A stretch of DNA of 64,000 bases, taken from assembly GCF_900128995.1 (NCBI RefSeq), contig NZ_FQUE01000003.1, positions 248,001 to 312,000 on the forward strand, in the 5' to 3' direction. Positions 1 through 7,185 of the stretch are shown piece after piece (within the stretch, counting starts at the first letter, position 1; every line of letters begins with the position of its first letter). The DNA is from Loktanella atrilutea (lineage in GTDB: Bacteria; Pseudomonadota; Alphaproteobacteria; Rhodobacterales; Rhodobacteraceae). A model generated the notes under the pieces. The model ran no database searches. It was given only the letters and a program-made list of their open reading frames with translations, and had not been told where the DNA came from. The position numbers were made by a program, and so were the translations under genes.

Positions 1-721
1 ATGGAAGCACAGCGACATGCTGTCCAAGATTGACCGCTACTTCGATCATATCTGGGTCTACGGGCCGCCGGATTTCCATGACCCGCTCAGCGGCCTCGAT
101 GTCCCGCCTGGCGTGCACGACCGGATGGATTTCGTGGGGTTCCTGCAGCGCAGCGCGCGCGGCGATCAGCCGTCGCAACATCAGCCGGATGGCGACTACA
201 TCCTTGTTACCACCGGCGGTGGCGGCGACGGGGCCGACCTGATCGAAAACGTGCTGCGCGCTTTCGAGCACGACCCCACGTTGACCACACGTACGCTGAT
301 CGTGCTGGGCCCCTACATGACAGCAGACCTGCGGGCTGGGTTCACCCAGCGGGGGACCGCCTTTCCACATGTGGATGTCATCGACTTCGACCCCCGGATG
401 GAGGAGTTGACCGCAAACGCGCAGTCCGTCGTCGCCATGGGGGGCTACAATACCTTCTGCGAAATTCTCTCCTTCGACAAACCCGCCCTCATCGTGCCGC
501 GGATCGCGCCGAGAGAGGAGCAACTGCTTCGTGCCAGTCGTGCTGCAGAACTGGGGATGGTCGACATGCTGCTGCCCGGCGATGCGGCCGATCCGGCCCG
601 CATGGCAGAAGCGCTGCGCCGCCTACCGCACCGCAAGCGGCCATCGGAGGGGTGGGACGGCTTGACGCTGGACGGGCTGCACAACATCTCGGACCTCGTC
701 GGCAAGGAGCTCGGGCGGTGA
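1..721 (+). CDS. MurG-like glycosyltransferase, 5'-truncated by the window edge
   Basis: The frame is already open at the first bases, so only the last ~240 residues are present. They look like the nucleotide-sugar-binding half of a GT-B glycosyltransferase of the MurG/GT28 kind: a Gly-rich loop (VTTGGGGDGADL) opens a Rossmann domain, and a hinge motif MGGYNTFCEILSF follows. The third gene of this cluster carries the matching QAGYNTVADIL, so the two are probably paralogues. No membrane segment is visible. The stop overlaps the GTG start of the next glycosyltransferase (GTGA), which points to one transcript. The sugar and acceptor are unknown; a role in extracellular polysaccharide or glycolipid assembly is inference from the cluster. 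Confidence 0.8.
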   Translation, partial: WKHSDMLSKIDRYFDHIWVYGPPDFHDPLSGLDVPPGVHDRMDFVGFLQRSARGDQPSQHQPDGDYILVTTGGGGDGADLIENVLRAFEHDPTLTTRTLIVLGPYMTADLRAGFTQRGTAFPHVDVIDFDPRMEELTANAQSVVAMGGYNTFCEILSFDKPALIVPRIAPREEQLLRASRAAELGMVDMLLPGDAADPARMAEALRRLPHRKRPSEGWDGLTLDGLHNISDLVGKELGR

Positions 722-1959
722 CGCAACAGCGGTTGGTTGTCGTCGTCAAAGGCTATCCGCGCCTGTCGGAAACCTTCATTGCACAAGAACTGCGCGGGCT
801 GGAGCTTGCTGGATATAAGCTGACCATCGTGTCGCTTCGCCACCCGACGGACCGGAAACGGCATGCCGTCCATGACGAGATGCAAGCAGACCTGCTTTAT
901 CTGCCCGAATACCTGCATCATGAACCCCTGCGCGTGTTGCGTGGCCTTGTGGCGACTGCCCGGCGGGCAAGGTTCTGGCGGTTGCTTCCAGCTGTCGTGC
1001 GAGATTTCTTGCGCGATCCCAGCCGGAACCGGTTGCGCCGTCTTGGACAGGCCGCTGTCCTCGTGCGCGAATGGCCGTCCAAGAATGCTTTGCTTCACGC
1101 GCATTTTATCCATACGCCGGCGTCTGTCACGGATTACGCGGCGCGGATCATGGGAATGGATTGGTCCGTCTCTGCCCATGCCAAGGACATCTGGACCCAA
1201 GCCGCGTGGGACCTGCGCGGAAAGTTAGCGAGGGCGCGCTGGGCGGTCACCTGCACGGCCAGCGGGTTTGCCCATCTGCAGGGTCTGGCGCGCGAGCCGG
1301 CGCGCGTGCACCTGAGTTATCATGGCCTTAACCTTAATCGCTTCCCGCCCTTCGAGGCCCGACGTGAACTGCGCGACGGACAAGATCGTGCGGACCCCGT
1401 GCGACTGGTCAGCGTCGGGCGCGCTGTGCCGAAAAAAGGCTATGATGTGCTGCTTCGAGGATTGGCGCAGCTGCCCGGCGACCTGTACTGGACCTTCGAT
1501 CACATGGGCGGTGGCGGGGATCTGCAAATGTTGCAGGCGCTTGCAAAAGATCTGGGCATTGCCGACCGGTGCCGGTGGCGCGGTGCCGTCGATCAGAGCG
1601 AGGTGCTGGCTGCCTACCGCGCAGCAGATGTCTTCGTGCTTGCCAGCCGGATCACCGCCGACGGCGACCGCGACGGCCTGCCCAACGTGCTGGTCGAGGC
1701 CGCAAGCCAGACTCTCGCCTGCGTTGCAAGCGATCTGTCGGGCATTCCCGAACTGATCTCCGATCCTTCCCTCGGCTGGCTCGTGCCATCGGAAGACCCC
1801 GCCGCGCTCGCCCTGACCTTGCAAGAGGCGATCACGCGACCGGACCTGCGTGCAGCAAAGGGTGCAGCCGTCGCGGCAAAGGTGCGTCAGCACTTCGACT
1901 ATCGTAACAGTGTTGCGCAGTTAACGTGTCTGTTTGAATCCGGCGGTGCGCGGCCATGA
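718..1959 (+). CDS. Glycosyltransferase family 4 (GT-B) protein
   Basis: About 413 residues. The N-terminal domain starts VVVVKGYPRLSETFIAQEL, the usual beginning of GT4 enzymes. The C-terminal domain has the donor-binding start VRLVSVGRAVPKKGYDVLL and the E-x7-E region DGLPNVLVEAASQ, followed by the GIPELI segment typical of GT4. I chose the GTG at 718 because it overlaps the previous stop (GTGA) and begins exactly at the conserved domain; an in-frame ATG at 652 would add residues that look like out-of-frame translation of the preceding gene. It probably transfers a sugar from a nucleotide donor at the cytoplasmic membrane face. Its acceptor is unknown. The next gene starts inside its stop codon (ATGA). 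Confidence 0.85.
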   Translation: MTQQRLVVVVKGYPRLSETFIAQELRGLELAGYKLTIVSLRHPTDRKRHAVHDEMQADLLYLPEYLHHEPLRVLRGLVATARRARFWRLLPAVVRDFLRDPSRNRLRRLGQAAVLVREWPSKNALLHAHFIHTPASVTDYAARIMGMDWSVSAHAKDIWTQAAWDLRGKLARARWAVTCTASGFAHLQGLAREPARVHLSYHGLNLNRFPPFEARRELRDGQDRADPVRLVSVGRAVPKKGYDVLLRGLAQLPGDLYWTFDHMGGGGDLQMLQALAKDLGIADRCRWRGAVDQSEVLAAYRAADVFVLASRITADGDRDGLPNVLVEAASQTLACVASDLSGIPELISDPSLGWLVPSEDPAALALTLQEAITRPDLRAAKGAAVAAKVRQHFDYRNSVAQLTCLFESGGARP

Positions 1960-3098
1960 CGGCCATCCGCGCCTTCTTCTATGTACAACACCTGCTTGGC
2001 ATCGGCCATTTGGCGCGGGCCAGCCGTATTGCGCAGGCAATGGTCGAGGCAGGCATGGAGGTGACGATGGTGACGGGTGGCATGCCGGTCCCGGGTTTTC
2101 CGGGTGCCGGTGTGCATCACGTTGCACTGCCAGCGCTTGCGATCGGCGAAGGAGGTTTCTCGGGGCTTGTCAATGCCAGCGGTCAGCCCGCTGACGCGGA
2201 TGAGTTGGCGCATCGTCGCGATCTGCTACTTGAGGCCTTTGCATCGGCGCGGCCTGATGTCGTCATAACGGAGGCATTTCCATTCGGTCGCCGCCAGATG
2301 CGGTTCGAATTGCTGCCGTTGCTCGACGCTATTTCCGCCGCACGGCCAAGACCGTTGTTGATGGCATCGGTCCGCGACATCCTTCAGGCCCGAGCGAAGC
2401 CACAACGGGATCAGGAAACGGTCGACCTGATTCGCAATCACTATGACAGGGTTCTGGTGCATGGCGATCCCGCCTTCGCCGCCCTCTCGGATTCATTCCC
2501 GCTGACTTCTCAGATCGCGGATCGCGTGATGCATACAGGGCTGGTCTGCCAGCCGGCGCCGCGGCCATCGGCAGAGAGGTTCGATGTCGTCGTCTCTGCC
2601 GGCGGCGGTGCGGTCGGTGCGACACTTGTGCAGGCCGCCGTTGCGGCCATCCGGCTGAGGCCTGCGCTGGGTGCCTGCCTTGTCATCACTGGACCGAACC
2701 TGCCGCAGGCGGATTACGACGCCTTGATTCAGTCGGCATCTGACAACGTCACGGTTGCACGATTTCGGACGGATTTTGCGGCTGTGCTGGCTTCAGCGCG
2801 TCTGTCGATTTCCCAAGCGGGCTACAATACCGTCGCCGATATCCTGCAGGCAGGGTGCCGCGCCTTGCTTGTGCCCTTCGCTTCGGGTGGCGAGACGGAA
2901 CAGACCCAGCGCGCGACGCTGCTGAGTCGCGCCGGTCGCGCCGTCATTCTGTCCGAAGCAGAGACGGATGGCCATTCAATGGCCATCGCGATGGACCGTG
3001 CGCTGGCGCAGGACCCTTCCGCCGCGACGACGTTCGCGAAAACGGATGGTGCCGCGCGGACGGCAGCGATCCTGCAGGATCTTTTGGCCTCACGTTAG
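1956..3098 (+). CDS. MurG-like glycosyltransferase (GT28-type)
   Basis: 380 residues with a two-domain GT-B layout. The N-terminal domain begins FYVQHLLGIGHLARASRI, where GxGHxxR is the sugar-acceptor-side motif of MurG-like enzymes. The C-terminal domain begins VVVSAGGGAVGATLV and contains SQAGYNTVADILQAGCRAL, the donor-binding hinge. It is translationally coupled to the preceding GT4 gene by an ATGA overlap, making three glycosyltransferases in one run. Its stop overlaps the stop of the convergent MBL-fold gene by three to four bases, so there is no room for a separate terminator. The substrate cannot be read from sequence; cell-surface glycan synthesis is the likeliest role. Confidence 0.82.
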   Translation: MTAIRAFFYVQHLLGIGHLARASRIAQAMVEAGMEVTMVTGGMPVPGFPGAGVHHVALPALAIGEGGFSGLVNASGQPADADELAHRRDLLLEAFASARPDVVITEAFPFGRRQMRFELLPLLDAISAARPRPLLMASVRDILQARAKPQRDQETVDLIRNHYDRVLVHGDPAFAALSDSFPLTSQIADRVMHTGLVCQPAPRPSAERFDVVVSAGGGAVGATLVQAAVAAIRLRPALGACLVITGPNLPQADYDALIQSASDNVTVARFRTDFAAVLASARLSISQAGYNTVADILQAGCRALLVPFASGGETEQTQRATLLSRAGRAVILSEAETDGHSMAIAMDRALAQDPSAATTFAKTDGAARTAAILQDLLASR

Positions 3099-3919
3099 AC
3101 GTCGACGATCTGAAAATCGCGAGCGAAGAAGGCGCCGGGAAACTCTGCCTGCGCCTCCGCCTCCATCACAAGAAGATCGGCATCGCTGCGGAATGTCGCG
3201 TGATGGACAAAGCCGATCCGTGCCGCACCGGCAGCCTGCGCCAGTCGCAGTCCCTGTTGCCATGTCGAATGGCCGAAACCGCTATGGCTAGGAAACTCCG
3301 CGTCAGTAAAGGTGGCATCGTACAAACACAGATCGGCACCAGCCATAAGCTCCAGTGCCACGGGGTCCAGCGTCCCGGGCGTATGGTCGGTATCGAAGAC
3401 CAGCGCGATGACCCGCGCGCCATAGGTCACCCGATATCCTGTTGCGCCGCCTGGATGACTGAGCAGGGCCGTCTGGATCGAAAGTCCCGGCGCAAGCGGC
3501 AGTGTGTCGCCGGGGCGAAAATCGTGCGTCTCGATCTGCGCCGTGAACACTTCCGGTCCAACCGGAAAGAACGGGCGACGCATGAAATCGGTCAACATTG
3601 TCCGTGTCGGCGTGCCATCGGCAAGCCCTGACCAGATGCGGATCGTTCGTTCAGAGTCGAAGAACGGTCGGAAGAACGGAAGGCCCACGATGTGATCGTA
3701 GTGACAGTGAGTGAAAAAGAGGTCGATGTCCCGATGCCCGTCGTCGAGCATCGTGCGGCCCGCGACGGGCAGACCGGAGCCTGCATCGAACAGCAGCACC
3801 CGGTCGCCGCACCGCAGTTCCATGCACATGGTGTTGCCGCCAAAAACGGCGGTCTGTGCCGTCGCCATCGGCATGCTGCCCCGTGCGCCCCAGACCTTCA
3901 GGTAAAAGGGGTCAGTCAT
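3095..3919 (-). CDS. MBL-fold metallo-hydrolase
   Basis: 274 residues. The metal-binding motif HxHxDH is intact (THCHYDH, His71, His73, Asp75, His76). Further candidate ligands are His155 in LLSHPGG, Asp176 in VFDTDHT and His239/240 in FVHHATF. This arrangement, with an early GARGSMP and a later GHST, resembles RNase Z-like or phosphodiesterase-like members of the metallo-beta-lactamase superfamily. No signal peptide is visible, so it is probably cytoplasmic. It is the last gene of a minus-strand trio after an ABC-exporter-like gene and a cyclic-nucleotide-binding gene, 39 bases downstream of the latter. The pairing with a cNMP sensor makes a phosphodiesterase function tempting, but that is inference. 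Confidence 0.85.
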   Translation of the reverse strand: MTDPFYLKVWGARGSMPMATAQTAVFGGNTMCMELRCGDRVLLFDAGSGLPVAGRTMLDDGHRDIDLFFTHCHYDHIVGLPFFRPFFDSERTIRIWSGLADGTPTRTMLTDFMRRPFFPVGPEVFTAQIETHDFRPGDTLPLAPGLSIQTALLSHPGGATGYRVTYGARVIALVFDTDHTPGTLDPVALELMAGADLCLYDATFTDAEFPSHSGFGHSTWQQGLRLAQAAGAARIGFVHHATFRSDADLLVMEAEAQAEFPGAFFARDFQIVDV

Positions 3920-3958: not shown

Positions 3959-4435
3959 TCAATGGATCGAATGGTTTGCGCTGTGACGCGCTGCGGCCAG
4001 TTCCGCGGATAGCGTCGCGGTCGTGTCGCTCAGACGTGCGGCAAGGACGCGCACGATCTCCAGCGTCATCTCGGGGAAGTCCATCAGCAGCTTCACGAAG
4101 TTCTCCTTGCTGATGCGCAAGGCTTCGACCGGGGTGACGGCCCGGACAGTCGCGGTACGGGCTACGTCGCAAAGAATCGCGATCTCGCCCACCATTGCGT
4201 TCTCTGCGACCTGGGCCACGCGCAGTTCCCCTTGCGGGGTCGTCACCATCACATCCGCCTGACCCTGCAGGATGACATAGGCGGCATCGCCATCATCGCC
4301 CTGATGGAACAATACCTCGCCGCTTCGATAGGCAACCCGGTCAGAGGTATAGGCTAGAAGCCGCAGTTTGGCCGCCGCCATGCCGGCGAAGATCGGCACC
4401 TGCCGAAGCATCTTGACTTCATCGTTCAGCAGCAC
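3959..4435 (-). CDS. Stand-alone cyclic nucleotide-binding domain protein
   Basis: 158 residues comprising one CRP-type beta-roll and a C-terminal helix, with no helix-turn-helix. The phosphate-binding cassette is recognisable as MVGEIAILCDVARTATVRA, with Gly83-Glu84 (ribose contact) and Arg93-Thr94 (phosphate contact) kept, so nucleotide binding looks competent. The start is a GTG at 4435 with a GGGAG ribosome-binding site about ten bases upstream; an ATG just upstream is out of frame. Lacking a DNA-binding domain, it probably acts by protein-protein contact, most plausibly on the ABC-like protein encoded 41 bases upstream. The length fits single-domain CNB proteins. The ligand (cAMP or cGMP) is unknown. 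Confidence 0.85.
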   Translation of the reverse strand: MLLNDEVKMLRQVPIFAGMAAAKLRLLAYTSDRVAYRSGEVLFHQGDDGDAAYVILQGQADVMVTTPQGELRVAQVAENAMVGEIAILCDVARTATVRAVTPVEALRISKENFVKLLMDFPEMTLEIVRVLAARLSDTTATLSAELAAARHSANHSIH

Positions 4436-4476: not shown

Positions 4477-7185
4477 TTATGACGCGATCATATCGCTGAA
4501 GATACCGTTACTTTCCTCGAGTGCTGTCGGCGTGCCGACCTCGACCAGTTTGCCGGCTTCGAAGACGGCGATCCGGTCGAAATGGCGCGCCATCTGTGGG
4601 TTGGATAGGGTCCAAAGGACGGCAGGGGCGCGGTCGGCATTTCGCAGGCGGCTCAGGACGCGCGTCAGCACCAGATCCTGCGACCGGTTGTCCAGCGCCG
4701 TCAGGGGGCGATTGAAGATGTAATAATCCGATGGTCGCACGAGGGCGCGGGCCAAGGCGACCTTTTGACGCTGTCCTGCGCTCAGTCTGCGGCCGCCGGT
4801 GCCGACATCAAAACCAAGGCCGATGGTCAGTACCTCGGCGAAGACGCCCTGCCGCTGCAGTAGATCGAGGATCGCGGACCTGACCTGATCCGCGCCGTCG
4901 CGATATTTCTGGCTGACCCTGCCAAAGAGGATGTTGTCCATCAATGTCGCGGAGTCGGTGAATCGCCCGGCGTCGTAGATCTCTATGACCGGCCTCAGAT
5001 GATCCGGGATTGCATTGTGAAAGAAGCGCCGGAAAGCAACGATTTCGGCCATCAGGTCCGTGTCCAGCAAGCCGAAGCGGTGACGCGGTTCGATGTATTC
5101 GAAGGCGAGACCGACCATCATCGTCCGGTCCTGTTCGGTTGGCACACCACCGGATTTGTCGAATTTCAGCAGTAATGCCTGATAGGTCGGTATGTCGTCC
5201 GGCGACATGAAGGTCATCTGGCGAAAGAACGGATGATCGGGGGGAAGATCCGCGAACAGTCCGATCACGTTCCGTGCGATCTCGACTCCTGCATCGCAAA
5301 GGCGATCGTAAAGACCGGCCTGCTGCAGAAGGCGCCGAAAGAACGCGGTGCGCTCTGATGGATCCAACAAGGCACTGTTCGGGCGCAGGCGACCGAACAG
5401 CAGGTTTTCAAGAATGGTCGCCTCAGTATTGTAGGCCTCGATGGCGAACGGCACGATCAGTTCCGCAAGCCCGCCCTGTTCCAGTTCCGTCCGCAACTGG
5501 CCACGAATGGCAACGATACGGCCGGCTAGGTCCGGGTAGTCGCGTTCCGACACGGTCGAATTAAGGGCAAGGTCCTGCATGTCGCGGGTCATGTCGACGC
5601 AATCCAGCACCTCTAGCAGGTGCCTGGTCAGACTCTCCGGCCCGGTCAAGTCGAGCGCGTCGTAATCGATCCAGTCGGCATCGCGGTCGTAATCTGGGTT
5701 GCCGGATCGTCTCGCCTCCTGCAGTTGCCAGCGGCGGGACGGGGACGGTGCACGGCCGTCCGGATCGGGCGGACTGTTGCGCAGGCCATAGGTCAGGTTG
5801 TCCAGCAGGCTGCCGGACAACAGCACGGCGTCGCCGCCAGCATAACTGATCGATCGACCGGTGACGGCCTCTGGCAGCGCGAGGATGTTCGATTGTCCGG
5901 CCACGATCCGTCCGCTGCTTGGCCAGACCTGCCGGGCAAAAAGCTCTGCGAAGGTCTCGCTGCCGGACCCGGCGGGTCCGATGGCAGCAAGCGCCTCTCC
6001 CGGTTCGAGCGTGAAATCCGTGTGATCGAGGCTGACGACACCGCCGTCGTCCATCACCCGGACACCGATTGCGGCCAGCGGCGTGTCCAGCGGTTCGGCG
6101 GTGCGGCGCGCCGTATGCAAATCCGAAGCGATCATGTTGTCGACGGCGAATTGGCCGATTACCTGCTGGTACTTGATCTCGACATCCTGCCGGTTCTGGT
6201 CCCAGTCGATCAGCTCTTTCATCGGTCCCGGAAGGTTCGAATAGGCACCGATCACCGCGACAAGCTGCCCGATGTCCAGATGCCCGGTCAGGGCCAGATA
6301 ACCGCCAAGGCTGTAGAAGATGAAAGGCGCGAGGGACGCGAGGAAGTTGTTGATGAATTTGACCAGGAATTTCCACTGATAGATATCATAACGGATCGTG
6401 AAGATCCGCCCCAGCCGGGCCGAGATGTCGGCCCTTTCGAAATTGGTGGTGTCGTTGGCGTGAATGGTTCCGATGCTTTCCACGATCTCTCCGACCCGGC
6501 CCGACAGCTGTCGCGCGGTCAGTTGGCGTTCACGACCCAAGACCAGCAGGCGGCGGCGCATCCGCGGAATAATCAGGATCTGCGCGCCGATCAGGGCGGC
6601 GGTAATGCCTCCCAGCATCAGGTTTTGCGCAAAGATAAAGGCCAAAGCCGTCAGGGCCTGACCGCCCAGCAGCGCTGGCGAAACGAAGGCATCGCCGGTG
6701 AAGCCGCCCATCGGCTCCACCTCGTCCTTGATCATGCTGGCGATCTCGGGGCTTTTCAGAAACTTGAACGTGGCCGGAGGGAACCGCAGCACGTGATCGA
6801 CAAGGGCATACCGGATCCGGCGCAGCAGGCGTTCTCCCAGCTTGCCCTTGTAGGCATTGATGTAGAACTTGAAGAGTCCGTTGACGATGACGAGCAGCAG
6901 GAACACGCCACTGAGCGCAAAGAGCATGTGGACCCTGTCGAGGGTGATGCCTTGAAAGAGAACAAGGACATCGGCCCCCGGAAGTGGCAAAGCGATCCTT
7001 AGAAAGGTCTGCGTGGCATCCGCTGTCTCGAACCCGTCGCCCTGTATGGGGCCGTTGACGATCGTTTTCGGCAGGCTGAAAGCCATGTAGTAGGGGATCA
7101 TCGACAGCGCGACGATCGCCAGGATCCAAAGCTGCTGCCGCCGGGTGTGCTCCCAGATGTAGCGCGACAGGCTGGCGTTAAACAC
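4477..7185 (-). CDS. ABC-exporter-like membrane protein with degenerate ATPase domain and ~290-residue insert
   Basis: About 902 residues from the chosen GTG start at 7185 (GGGGG ribosome-binding site upstream); an ATG at 7302 would add 39 unconserved residues. Residues ~1-350 form an ABC type-I exporter membrane domain with hydrophobic segments near 20-38, 87-105, 170-205 and 283-315. The nucleotide-binding domain is abnormal. The Walker A is GPAGSGSET (403-411), lacking the Lys and Ser/Thr; the Q-loop Gln is gone (SYAGGD); Walker B is YYIFNRPLTALD (821-832), with Asp-Glu replaced by Asn-Arg; and the switch His is absent (LWTLSNPQ). Only the signature LSAGQ (801-805) is nearly normal. About 290 extra residues separate the Q-loop from the signature. 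It is probably not a classical ATP-driven pump. It is first in an operon with the CNB and MBL genes. Confidence 0.8.
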   Translation of the reverse strand: MFNASLSRYIWEHTRRQQLWILAIVALSMIPYYMAFSLPKTIVNGPIQGDGFETADATQTFLRIALPLPGADVLVLFQGITLDRVHMLFALSGVFLLLVIVNGLFKFYINAYKGKLGERLLRRIRYALVDHVLRFPPATFKFLKSPEIASMIKDEVEPMGGFTGDAFVSPALLGGQALTALAFIFAQNLMLGGITAALIGAQILIIPRMRRRLLVLGRERQLTARQLSGRVGEIVESIGTIHANDTTNFERADISARLGRIFTIRYDIYQWKFLVKFINNFLASLAPFIFYSLGGYLALTGHLDIGQLVAVIGAYSNLPGPMKELIDWDQNRQDVEIKYQQVIGQFAVDNMIASDLHTARRTAEPLDTPLAAIGVRVMDDGGVVSLDHTDFTLEPGEALAAIGPAGSGSETFAELFARQVWPSSGRIVAGQSNILALPEAVTGRSISYAGGDAVLLSGSLLDNLTYGLRNSPPDPDGRAPSPSRRWQLQEARRSGNPDYDRDADWIDYDALDLTGPESLTRHLLEVLDCVDMTRDMQDLALNSTVSERDYPDLAGRIVAIRGQLRTELEQGGLAELIVPFAIEAYNTEATILENLLFGRLRPNSALLDPSERTAFFRRLLQQAGLYDRLCDAGVEIARNVIGLFADLPPDHPFFRQMTFMSPDDIPTYQALLLKFDKSGGVPTEQDRTMMVGLAFEYIEPRHRFGLLDTDLMAEIVAFRRFFHNAIPDHLRPVIEIYDAGRFTDSATLMDNILFGRVSQKYRDGADQVRSAILDLLQRQGVFAEVLTIGLGFDVGTGGRRLSAGQRQKVALARALVRPSDYYIFNRPLTALDNRSQDLVLTRVLSRLRNADRAPAVLWTLSNPQMARHFDRIAVFEAGKLVEVGTPTALEESNGIFSDMIAS

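Follow-up and report, generated by a model that had tools for sequence, protein, structure and literature searches.

Type I ATP-binding cassette (ABC) exporters such as MsbA and TmrAB consist of a transmembrane domain (TMD) and a nucleotide-binding domain (NBD) that bears the Walker A, Q-loop, signature, Walker B and switch-His residues. The SbmA/BacA-like peptide transporters (SLiPT) possess no NBD. Their membrane domain is related to that of ABC transporters, and SbmA, in which an ABC-like TMD is driven by protons, provides a precedent for such a domain working by other means (PMC13316013). Heterodimeric ABC exporters with a degenerate site are also well known, and combine impaired catalytic residues with a fold that is kept (PMC7756269). 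In Sinorhizobium meliloti, nine genes of the phazolicin-protecting-polysaccharide (PPP) cluster smb21252-smb21271 are reported to be necessary for a surface polysaccharide (PMC10128002). The window analysed here, 64,000 nucleotides of the Loktanella atrilutea genome (contig NZ_FQUE01000003.1, positions 248,001 to 312,000), encodes an ABC-exporter-like protein that resembles MsbA and TmrAB in the type and order of its TMD and NBD and in a partly kept signature, but differs from them in lacking the Walker A, Q-loop, Walker B and switch-His residues, in carrying a repeat-bearing insert of ~300 residues, and in having a cyclic-nucleotide-binding (CNB) partner. Unlike the SLiPTs, which work on the proton gradient, it has an NBD; proton coupling is for this protein a hypothesis, and it has no match to the SbmA/BacA Pfam family at E up to 1. 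No published description of it was found among open-licence papers. The analysis suggests that the protein belongs to a family of ATPase-dead exporter-fold proteins and is the membrane component of a cyclic-nucleotide-linked glycan system.

The fold is that of an exporter. Pfam detects a TMD of the ABC_membrane type (E 4.8e-16, 59.7 bits against a cut-off of 28) and an ABC_tran NBD in two stretches (E 5.8e-11, 43.6 bits against a cut-off of 25), and the 50 best of 1403 Foldseek matches to an AlphaFold2 model are exporter-fold ABC transporters, led by TmrAB (E 1.9e-16; modest whole-chain TM-score, 0.37 by query and 0.56 by target, rmsd 17 Å); the type I exporter-like membrane domain of the original prediction, which was made from the sequence alone, is thereby confirmed. 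The model, built from an 18-row alignment, shows long helices and then the NBD (mean pLDDT 76.5, pTM 0.68); it is of moderate quality, with TMD blocks mostly at pLDDT 55-80 and some at 36-50, and its details carry no claim. The TMD is the most conserved part of the protein (mean column identity of 78% over 18 rows, versus 53% in the insert stretch), and because of this strong conservation the membrane domain probably still does the work. The loop that joins the first two long helices (window 6934-7056, residues 44-84) is itself long and conserved; with beta strands predicted in the model and several invariant residues, it may be a substrate or gate element.

The motif reference was a set of three ordinary exporters encoded in the same genome, each of which keeps all six scored residues (Walker A Lys and Ser/Thr, Q-loop Gln, Walker B Asp and Glu, switch His). 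Aligned with them, the window protein has no Walker A GxxxxGK[ST], no Walker B Asp and Glu, no Q-loop Gln and no switch His (Table 1), exactly the losses that had been read from its sequence. One scan of species genomes yielded 110 relatives. The 80 best were kept; most come from Mesorhizobium, the rest from Sinorhizobium, Rhizobium, Shinella, Paracoccus and others. In the alignment of these with the window (81 rows, of which L034 contains two X), the Walker A Lys, the Walker A Ser/Thr, the Walker B Asp and the switch His are each kept in 0/81 rows, the Walker B Asp column being Asn in every one; the Walker B Glu is kept in 6/81 and the Q-loop Gln in 2/81. Since the losses of Lys, Ser/Thr, Asp and His recur in all 81 rows, they are more than chance, and the proposed check that the altered motifs be conserved in homologues comes out in favour of the original prediction. 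The A-loop position is Asp379 in the window and Asp in 76/81 rows, versus Tyr in two and Ala in one of the ordinary exporters. That the signature is kept, as was also stated, is nearly right: its Gln stands in 81/81 rows, but one Gly is already Ala in the window (LSAGQ), and the two Gly are kept in 40/81 and 59/81 rows. With the catalytic residues gone, established ABC biochemistry makes ATP hydrolysis by the protein alone very unlikely, and its ATPase-dead state is, to judge from the alignments, a family trait whose degree varies among relatives. Proteins annotated as ‘ABC transporter ATP-binding protein’, the family warns, need not be ATPases.

Beyond these close relatives, a profile of the insert matched 31 of 398 genomes from the phylum, each of which is either the same genome or labelled as the same family or the same class, and a TMD profile, applied at E<=1e-40, matched 58 of 190 genomes from the class, although these matches include a TMD-only paralogue and the NBD is not confirmed for each. 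Forty places matched by the TMD profile were hand-picked for spread and their neighbourhoods retrieved; together with 18 representatives of the 81 rows (<80% identity, window included) they make up a set of 58 diverse members. The members of this set that keep a given residue number 19 for Lys, 3 for Ser/Thr, 9 for Gln, 9 for Asp, 22 for Glu and 10 for His; 25 members keep none of the six residues, 9 keep one, 11 keep two, 11 keep three and 2 keep four, and none of the 58 keeps five or six. Homologues with an intact motif set, which would have spoken against the original prediction, were thus not found in this set, but because relatives in similar neighbourhoods keep some of the residues, the loss is graded. 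In 41/58 members the Lys position is followed by Glu or Asp; among the 19 that keep Lys (loci within L154-L190), Glu/Asp replaces Ser/Thr next to it in 16, an unusual P-loop. A TMD-only tree places the window inside a 23-row set (support 99) from which Lys, Ser/Thr, Asp and His are absent throughout, and parsimony on this tree requires 6-10 changes for each of Lys, Asp, Glu, His and Gln. The tree was built by a quick method, with 23 of 58 inner branches at support <80; the branches to the canonical outgroup are 8-10 long and that to L162 and L163 is 10, so that the root and the placement of these two loci are unsure. Repeated, stepwise loss of ATPase residues appears to be the simplest reading, though many forks are weak. 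A dead-ATPase exporter branch with graded intermediates offers a way to study how an exporter fold operates without ATP hydrolysis, a question so far raised by SbmA-type proteins.

Several members of the wider family depart from the common form. L162 and L163 form a divergent sub-branch (profile score 272-274 bits) with an altered signature region and no adjacent CNB gene. Some genomes of the window's own family hold two or three diverged copies: G083 has three insert matches, in frames of 1008-1080 aa, and G115 has two, and the one copy retrieved from each of G083, G115 and G067 is fused to a CNB domain (L168-L170). The Loktanella atrilutea genome also encodes a membrane-domain-only paralogue (L090:8842-10083, contig C43, minus strand, 413-aa frame), and no NBD match was found on contig C43; a relative that is 52% identical (G280:C4:21611-22765, 425-aa frame) occurs in one other genome. 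The paralogue is a second way of ATPase loss.

The original prediction overlooked the insert (residues ~470-790). In the alignment, ~300 residues separate the Walker A half from the signature; ordinary exporters need only a few dozen residues to span the same interval. The segment that follows the Q-loop (DNLLYGL) is found twice more, as ENLLFG and DNILFG. Profile comparison relates the second and third repeat units at P 2e-17 over 85 columns; the first shares only a short motif with the second and third (P 2e-5 and 3e-4). As a known domain the insert was rejected: Pfam gives only ABC_membrane and ABC_tran at E up to 1, and its profile has no match at E below 0.1 among sequences of solved structures, the best being vimentin and TRAPP chains at E 0.13 and worse.

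A conserved companion of the exporter-like gene is the CNB gene, which has one cyclic nucleotide monophosphate (cNMP)-binding domain. This domain is present at E<=1e-8 in 115 of 120 loci (80 kept and 40 hand-picked); it starts 21-323 nt downstream of the exporter-like gene in 76/80 of the former and is adjacent or fused in 38/40 of the latter, five of which (L159, L168, L169, L170 and L183) have it as the C-terminus of the exporter-like protein, a fusion confirmed by Pfam in all three tested (L159, L168 and L183). Because the window's own genome holds just six CNB domains in all, the CNB gene is not a chance neighbour, and because natural fusions exist, the CNB subunit probably docks on the exporter-like protein, most simply on the pseudo-NBD. 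The phosphate-binding cassette has Arg in 114/116 rows and Glu in 107/116, both residues being present in the window CNB protein; we take these two to be the key residues of the cNMP pocket. The pockets of L168-L170 are more diverged. The pairing suggests that a cyclic nucleotide acts on a surface polysaccharide by a post-translational route. A frequent third gene encodes a metallo-beta-lactamase-fold (MBL) hydrolase with a weak match to a cyclic-nucleotide phosphodiesterase model (E 7.5e-8, far below the curated cut-off); it might degrade the signal read by the CNB subunit. Genes for adenylate/guanylate cyclases and for a DUF3095 protein lie near the cluster at some loci (L089:2-589; L192:637-1980; L194:6742-8091; L194:3765-4967; L010:12264-13442), DUF3095 in 61/120, and may form a local cNMP circuit.

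Glycosyltransferase genes, too, are frequent neighbours. GT28-type genes were found in 72/80 and 28/40 loci. Relative to the exporter-like gene, the glycosyltransferases of the latter 28 loci run divergently in 22, point the same way from an upstream position in 4 and from a downstream position in 1, and converge on it in 1. Neighbour clustering, like the test for a canonical partner exporter described below, relied on crude gene calls that may miss genes. The glycosyltransferases are convergent in the window and co-directional in the Mesorhizobium loci that show them. The occurrence of several gene orders indicates that the association outlasts rearrangement. In Rhizobium leguminosarum a cyclase gene comes first, followed by a four-gene ABC importer, three glycosyltransferase genes, the pseudo-ABC gene and the CNB gene.

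Table 1. Features of the exporter-like gene and its neighbours in the window (window positions)
Feature	Position	Strand	Remarks
ATPase-dead ABC-exporter-like protein (central element)	4477..7185	-	GTG start at 7185, stop at 4477, 902 aa
TMD, residues 1-345	6151..7185	-	six long helices in model
Degenerate Walker A GPAGSGSET	5953..5979	-	Lys to Ser409, Ser/Thr to Glu410
Degenerate Q-loop and first ‘DNLTYG’ element	5782..5850	-	Gln to Gly451
Stretch of residues ~470-790, mostly insert	4816..5778	-	two further post-Q-loop-like elements inside
Second post-Q-loop-like element EAYNTEATILENLLFGRL	5386..5439	-	
Third post-Q-loop-like element GRFTDSATLMDNILFGRV	4915..4968	-	
Signature LSAGQR	4768..4785	-	Gln805 in 81/81 rows
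Degenerate Walker B YYIFNR	4708..4725	-	Asp to Asn825, Glu to Arg826; Asn825 in 81/81 rows
Region of lost switch His	4600..4617	-	His to Ser861
CNB protein, conserved partner	3959..4435	-	158 aa; one cNMP-binding domain, no other Pfam domain above cut-off
MBL-fold hydrolase, frequent third gene	3095..3919	-	weak RNase Z match, below curated cut-off
GT28-type glycosyltransferase, conserved set	1956..3098	+	
GT4-type glycosyltransferase, conserved set	652..1959	+	true start probably downstream
Second GT28-type glycosyltransferase, C-terminal part	1..721	+	start outside window (L089:11532-12722)

The S. meliloti orthologue provides a possible link to a described polysaccharide. In strain ml46 the gene order is GT4, polysaccharide deacetylase, MBL hydrolase, DUF3095, nucleotide-sugar dehydrogenase, adenylate/guanylate cyclase; then polysaccharide lyase, importer (four genes), GT28, GT4, GT28 and methyltransferase; and finally pseudo-ABC, CNB (annotated as Crp/Fnr), FkbM methyltransferase and LacI regulator. 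The two GT28 genes are annotation gaps in the ml46 record and were seen as frames in strain 2011. Counting backward from SM_b21272, a LacI regulator (PMC11387232), puts the first GT28 gene at smb21265, in agreement with the glycosyltransferase family protein listed there (PMC10128002); counting forward from smb21252, a glycosyltransferase (PMC10128002), puts the cyclase at smb21257, in agreement with the truncated adenylate cyclase listed there (PMC12542648). Two numbers are left over between the counts, probably because a gene is split in the numbered genome. By this count the pseudo-ABC orthologue would be smb21269 and the CNB gene smb21270, and the orthologue fits, by counting, in the PPP cluster. 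The S. meliloti gene set and the window's own genome have in common three glycosyltransferases, a further GT4, a deacetylase-like gene, an importer, the pseudo-ABC gene, the CNB gene and the MBL gene; they differ in lineage and gene arrangement, and the accessible parts of the published description (PMC10128002) mention neither a dead ATPase nor a CNB gene. The same paper ties the cluster to antimicrobial-peptide tolerance and probably symbiosis, reports strong depletion of the adenylate cyclase gene cyaA in the same phazolicin screen, and links cAMP to polysaccharide regulation. An early lead, the CuxR/arabinose-polysaccharide cluster, was dropped, as nothing was found linking it to this locus; for smb2080x/2081x no paper was found in the open-licence literature.

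Because the catalytic residues are lost, the TMD is conserved and CNB fusions occur, we propose that the window protein is a cyclic-nucleotide-controlled, ATPase-dead, exporter-fold flippase or assembly factor for surface polysaccharide, with a rough probability of 0.45; its transport, gating and energy source are what we infer. It would form a homodimer in the inner membrane, and its pseudo-NBD, no longer an engine, would offer a platform for coupling and docking. Docked on that platform, the CNB subunit would bind cAMP (or cGMP) and switch the membrane domain, which in turn would move a lipid-linked or anionic glycan, the product of the neighbouring glycosyltransferases, or organise its transfer. 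Energy might come from the proton gradient or from the push of synthesis, with no ATP hydrolysed. The original prediction had left the role open between a sensor, a scaffold and a transporter, either passive or otherwise energised. The CNB partner, its fusion to the exporter-like protein in some loci and the glycosyltransferases nearby narrow the choice to a membrane component of a cyclic-nucleotide-linked glycan system. A bolder version, which we regard as rather unlikely, is that this constitutes a new mechanism: a cyclic-nucleotide-gated, ATP-independent flippase for a lipid-linked or polymeric surface glycan, in which ATPase activity was traded for a CNB subunit on a repeat-expanded pseudo-NBD, and which may have arisen in Alphaproteobacteria by stepwise loss with its intermediates still living.

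A number of observations weigh against a cyclic-nucleotide-controlled flippase or assembly factor. The CNB domain was not found at E<=1e-8 in five of the 120 loci (L070, L073, L074, L162 and L163), and in L072 a distance of 4.4 kb separates it from the exporter-like gene; GT28-type genes were not seen in 8/80 and 12/40 loci; and a cyclase is near just 8-11 of the 120 loci per cyclase query, within flanks of ~6 kb. Several diverse members, including the 19 of 58 with the Walker A Lys, keep Lys or His, so that some may still bind ATP, and nucleotide binding may persist where Lys is kept. An independent cyaA mutant of S. meliloti had a minimum inhibitory concentration just twofold lower (0.74 versus 1.47 ug/mL), a difference that the authors call small (PMC10128002), and cAMP acts on polysaccharide genes of this species through the transcription factor Clr (PMC5498481), a route that could explain the cyaA effect without any CNB subunit.

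The main rival, unlikely but a serious contender, is a non-transporting scaffold or sensor that would hold the glycosyltransferases and the CNB subunit together at the membrane and pass on a cNMP signal, with the polymer exported by another system. Loss of the ATPase residues and the CNB pairing agree with it, as does the large insert in the NBD, which could be a docking surface; but the TMD is the most conserved part of the protein, and the annotation of S. meliloti ml46 names no other exporter between the first GT4 and FkbM genes, the two unannotated GT28 gaps aside.

An improbable alternative is that the protein is half of a heterodimer, in which an ATPase-competent half-exporter encoded elsewhere supplies the Walker motifs that pair with the retained signature. 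The invariant signature Gln805 and the partly kept Gly residues of the 81 rows speak for it, and exporters of this kind have their precedent in the degenerate-site heterodimers (PMC7756269). The window protein differs from these in lacking also Walker A and the Walker B Asp; of the 58 diverse members, 50 retain the signature Gln but just 7 retain each Gly; and a canonical exporter was found beside the family in only 1/58 loci (L168; crude gene calls, local genes), which speaks against a partner half encoded in the neighbourhood.

It is more doubtful still that ATP or another nucleotide is bound without hydrolysis as a structural switch. The members that keep Lys (19/58), Asp (9/58) or His (10/58), among them ‘GKE’ and ‘GKD’ relatives that might represent the transition, would suit such a role, but the 23-row group of the window keeps none of Lys, Ser/Thr, Asp and His, and the A-loop position, with Asp in 76/81 rows, tells against it too.

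The close relatives are under purifying selection. Among the 80 kept relatives (mostly Mesorhizobium, window excluded), 1,459 pairs at 88-97% amino-acid identity were compared, of which 1,215-1,386 per region passed the limits on synonymous divergence (dS); the median ratio of nonsynonymous to synonymous divergence (dN/dS) over these pairs, which are not independent, is 0.153 in the TMD, 0.166 in the Walker A half, 0.155 in the insert stretch and 0.210 from signature to Walker B; individual pairs reach 0.64. A decaying pseudogene or annotation artefact, for which motif loss alone could be adduced, has practically no chance, in line with the original prediction: the frame is full-length and open, all 81 rows are 896-919 aa long with no internal stop and share the altered motifs across 80 further loci, and the medians of 0.15-0.21 in close relatives, the window standing outside the pairs, are far from the value near 1 of relaxed selection.

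An ABC importer is embedded in the cluster at several loci (L089:5443-11512, L192:2135-8105 and L194:9378-15340). That of the window's own genome comprises a double ATPase, in which two Walker A motifs and C-terminal regions of the oligopeptide type occur, followed by a secreted-type protein and two permease-like proteins.

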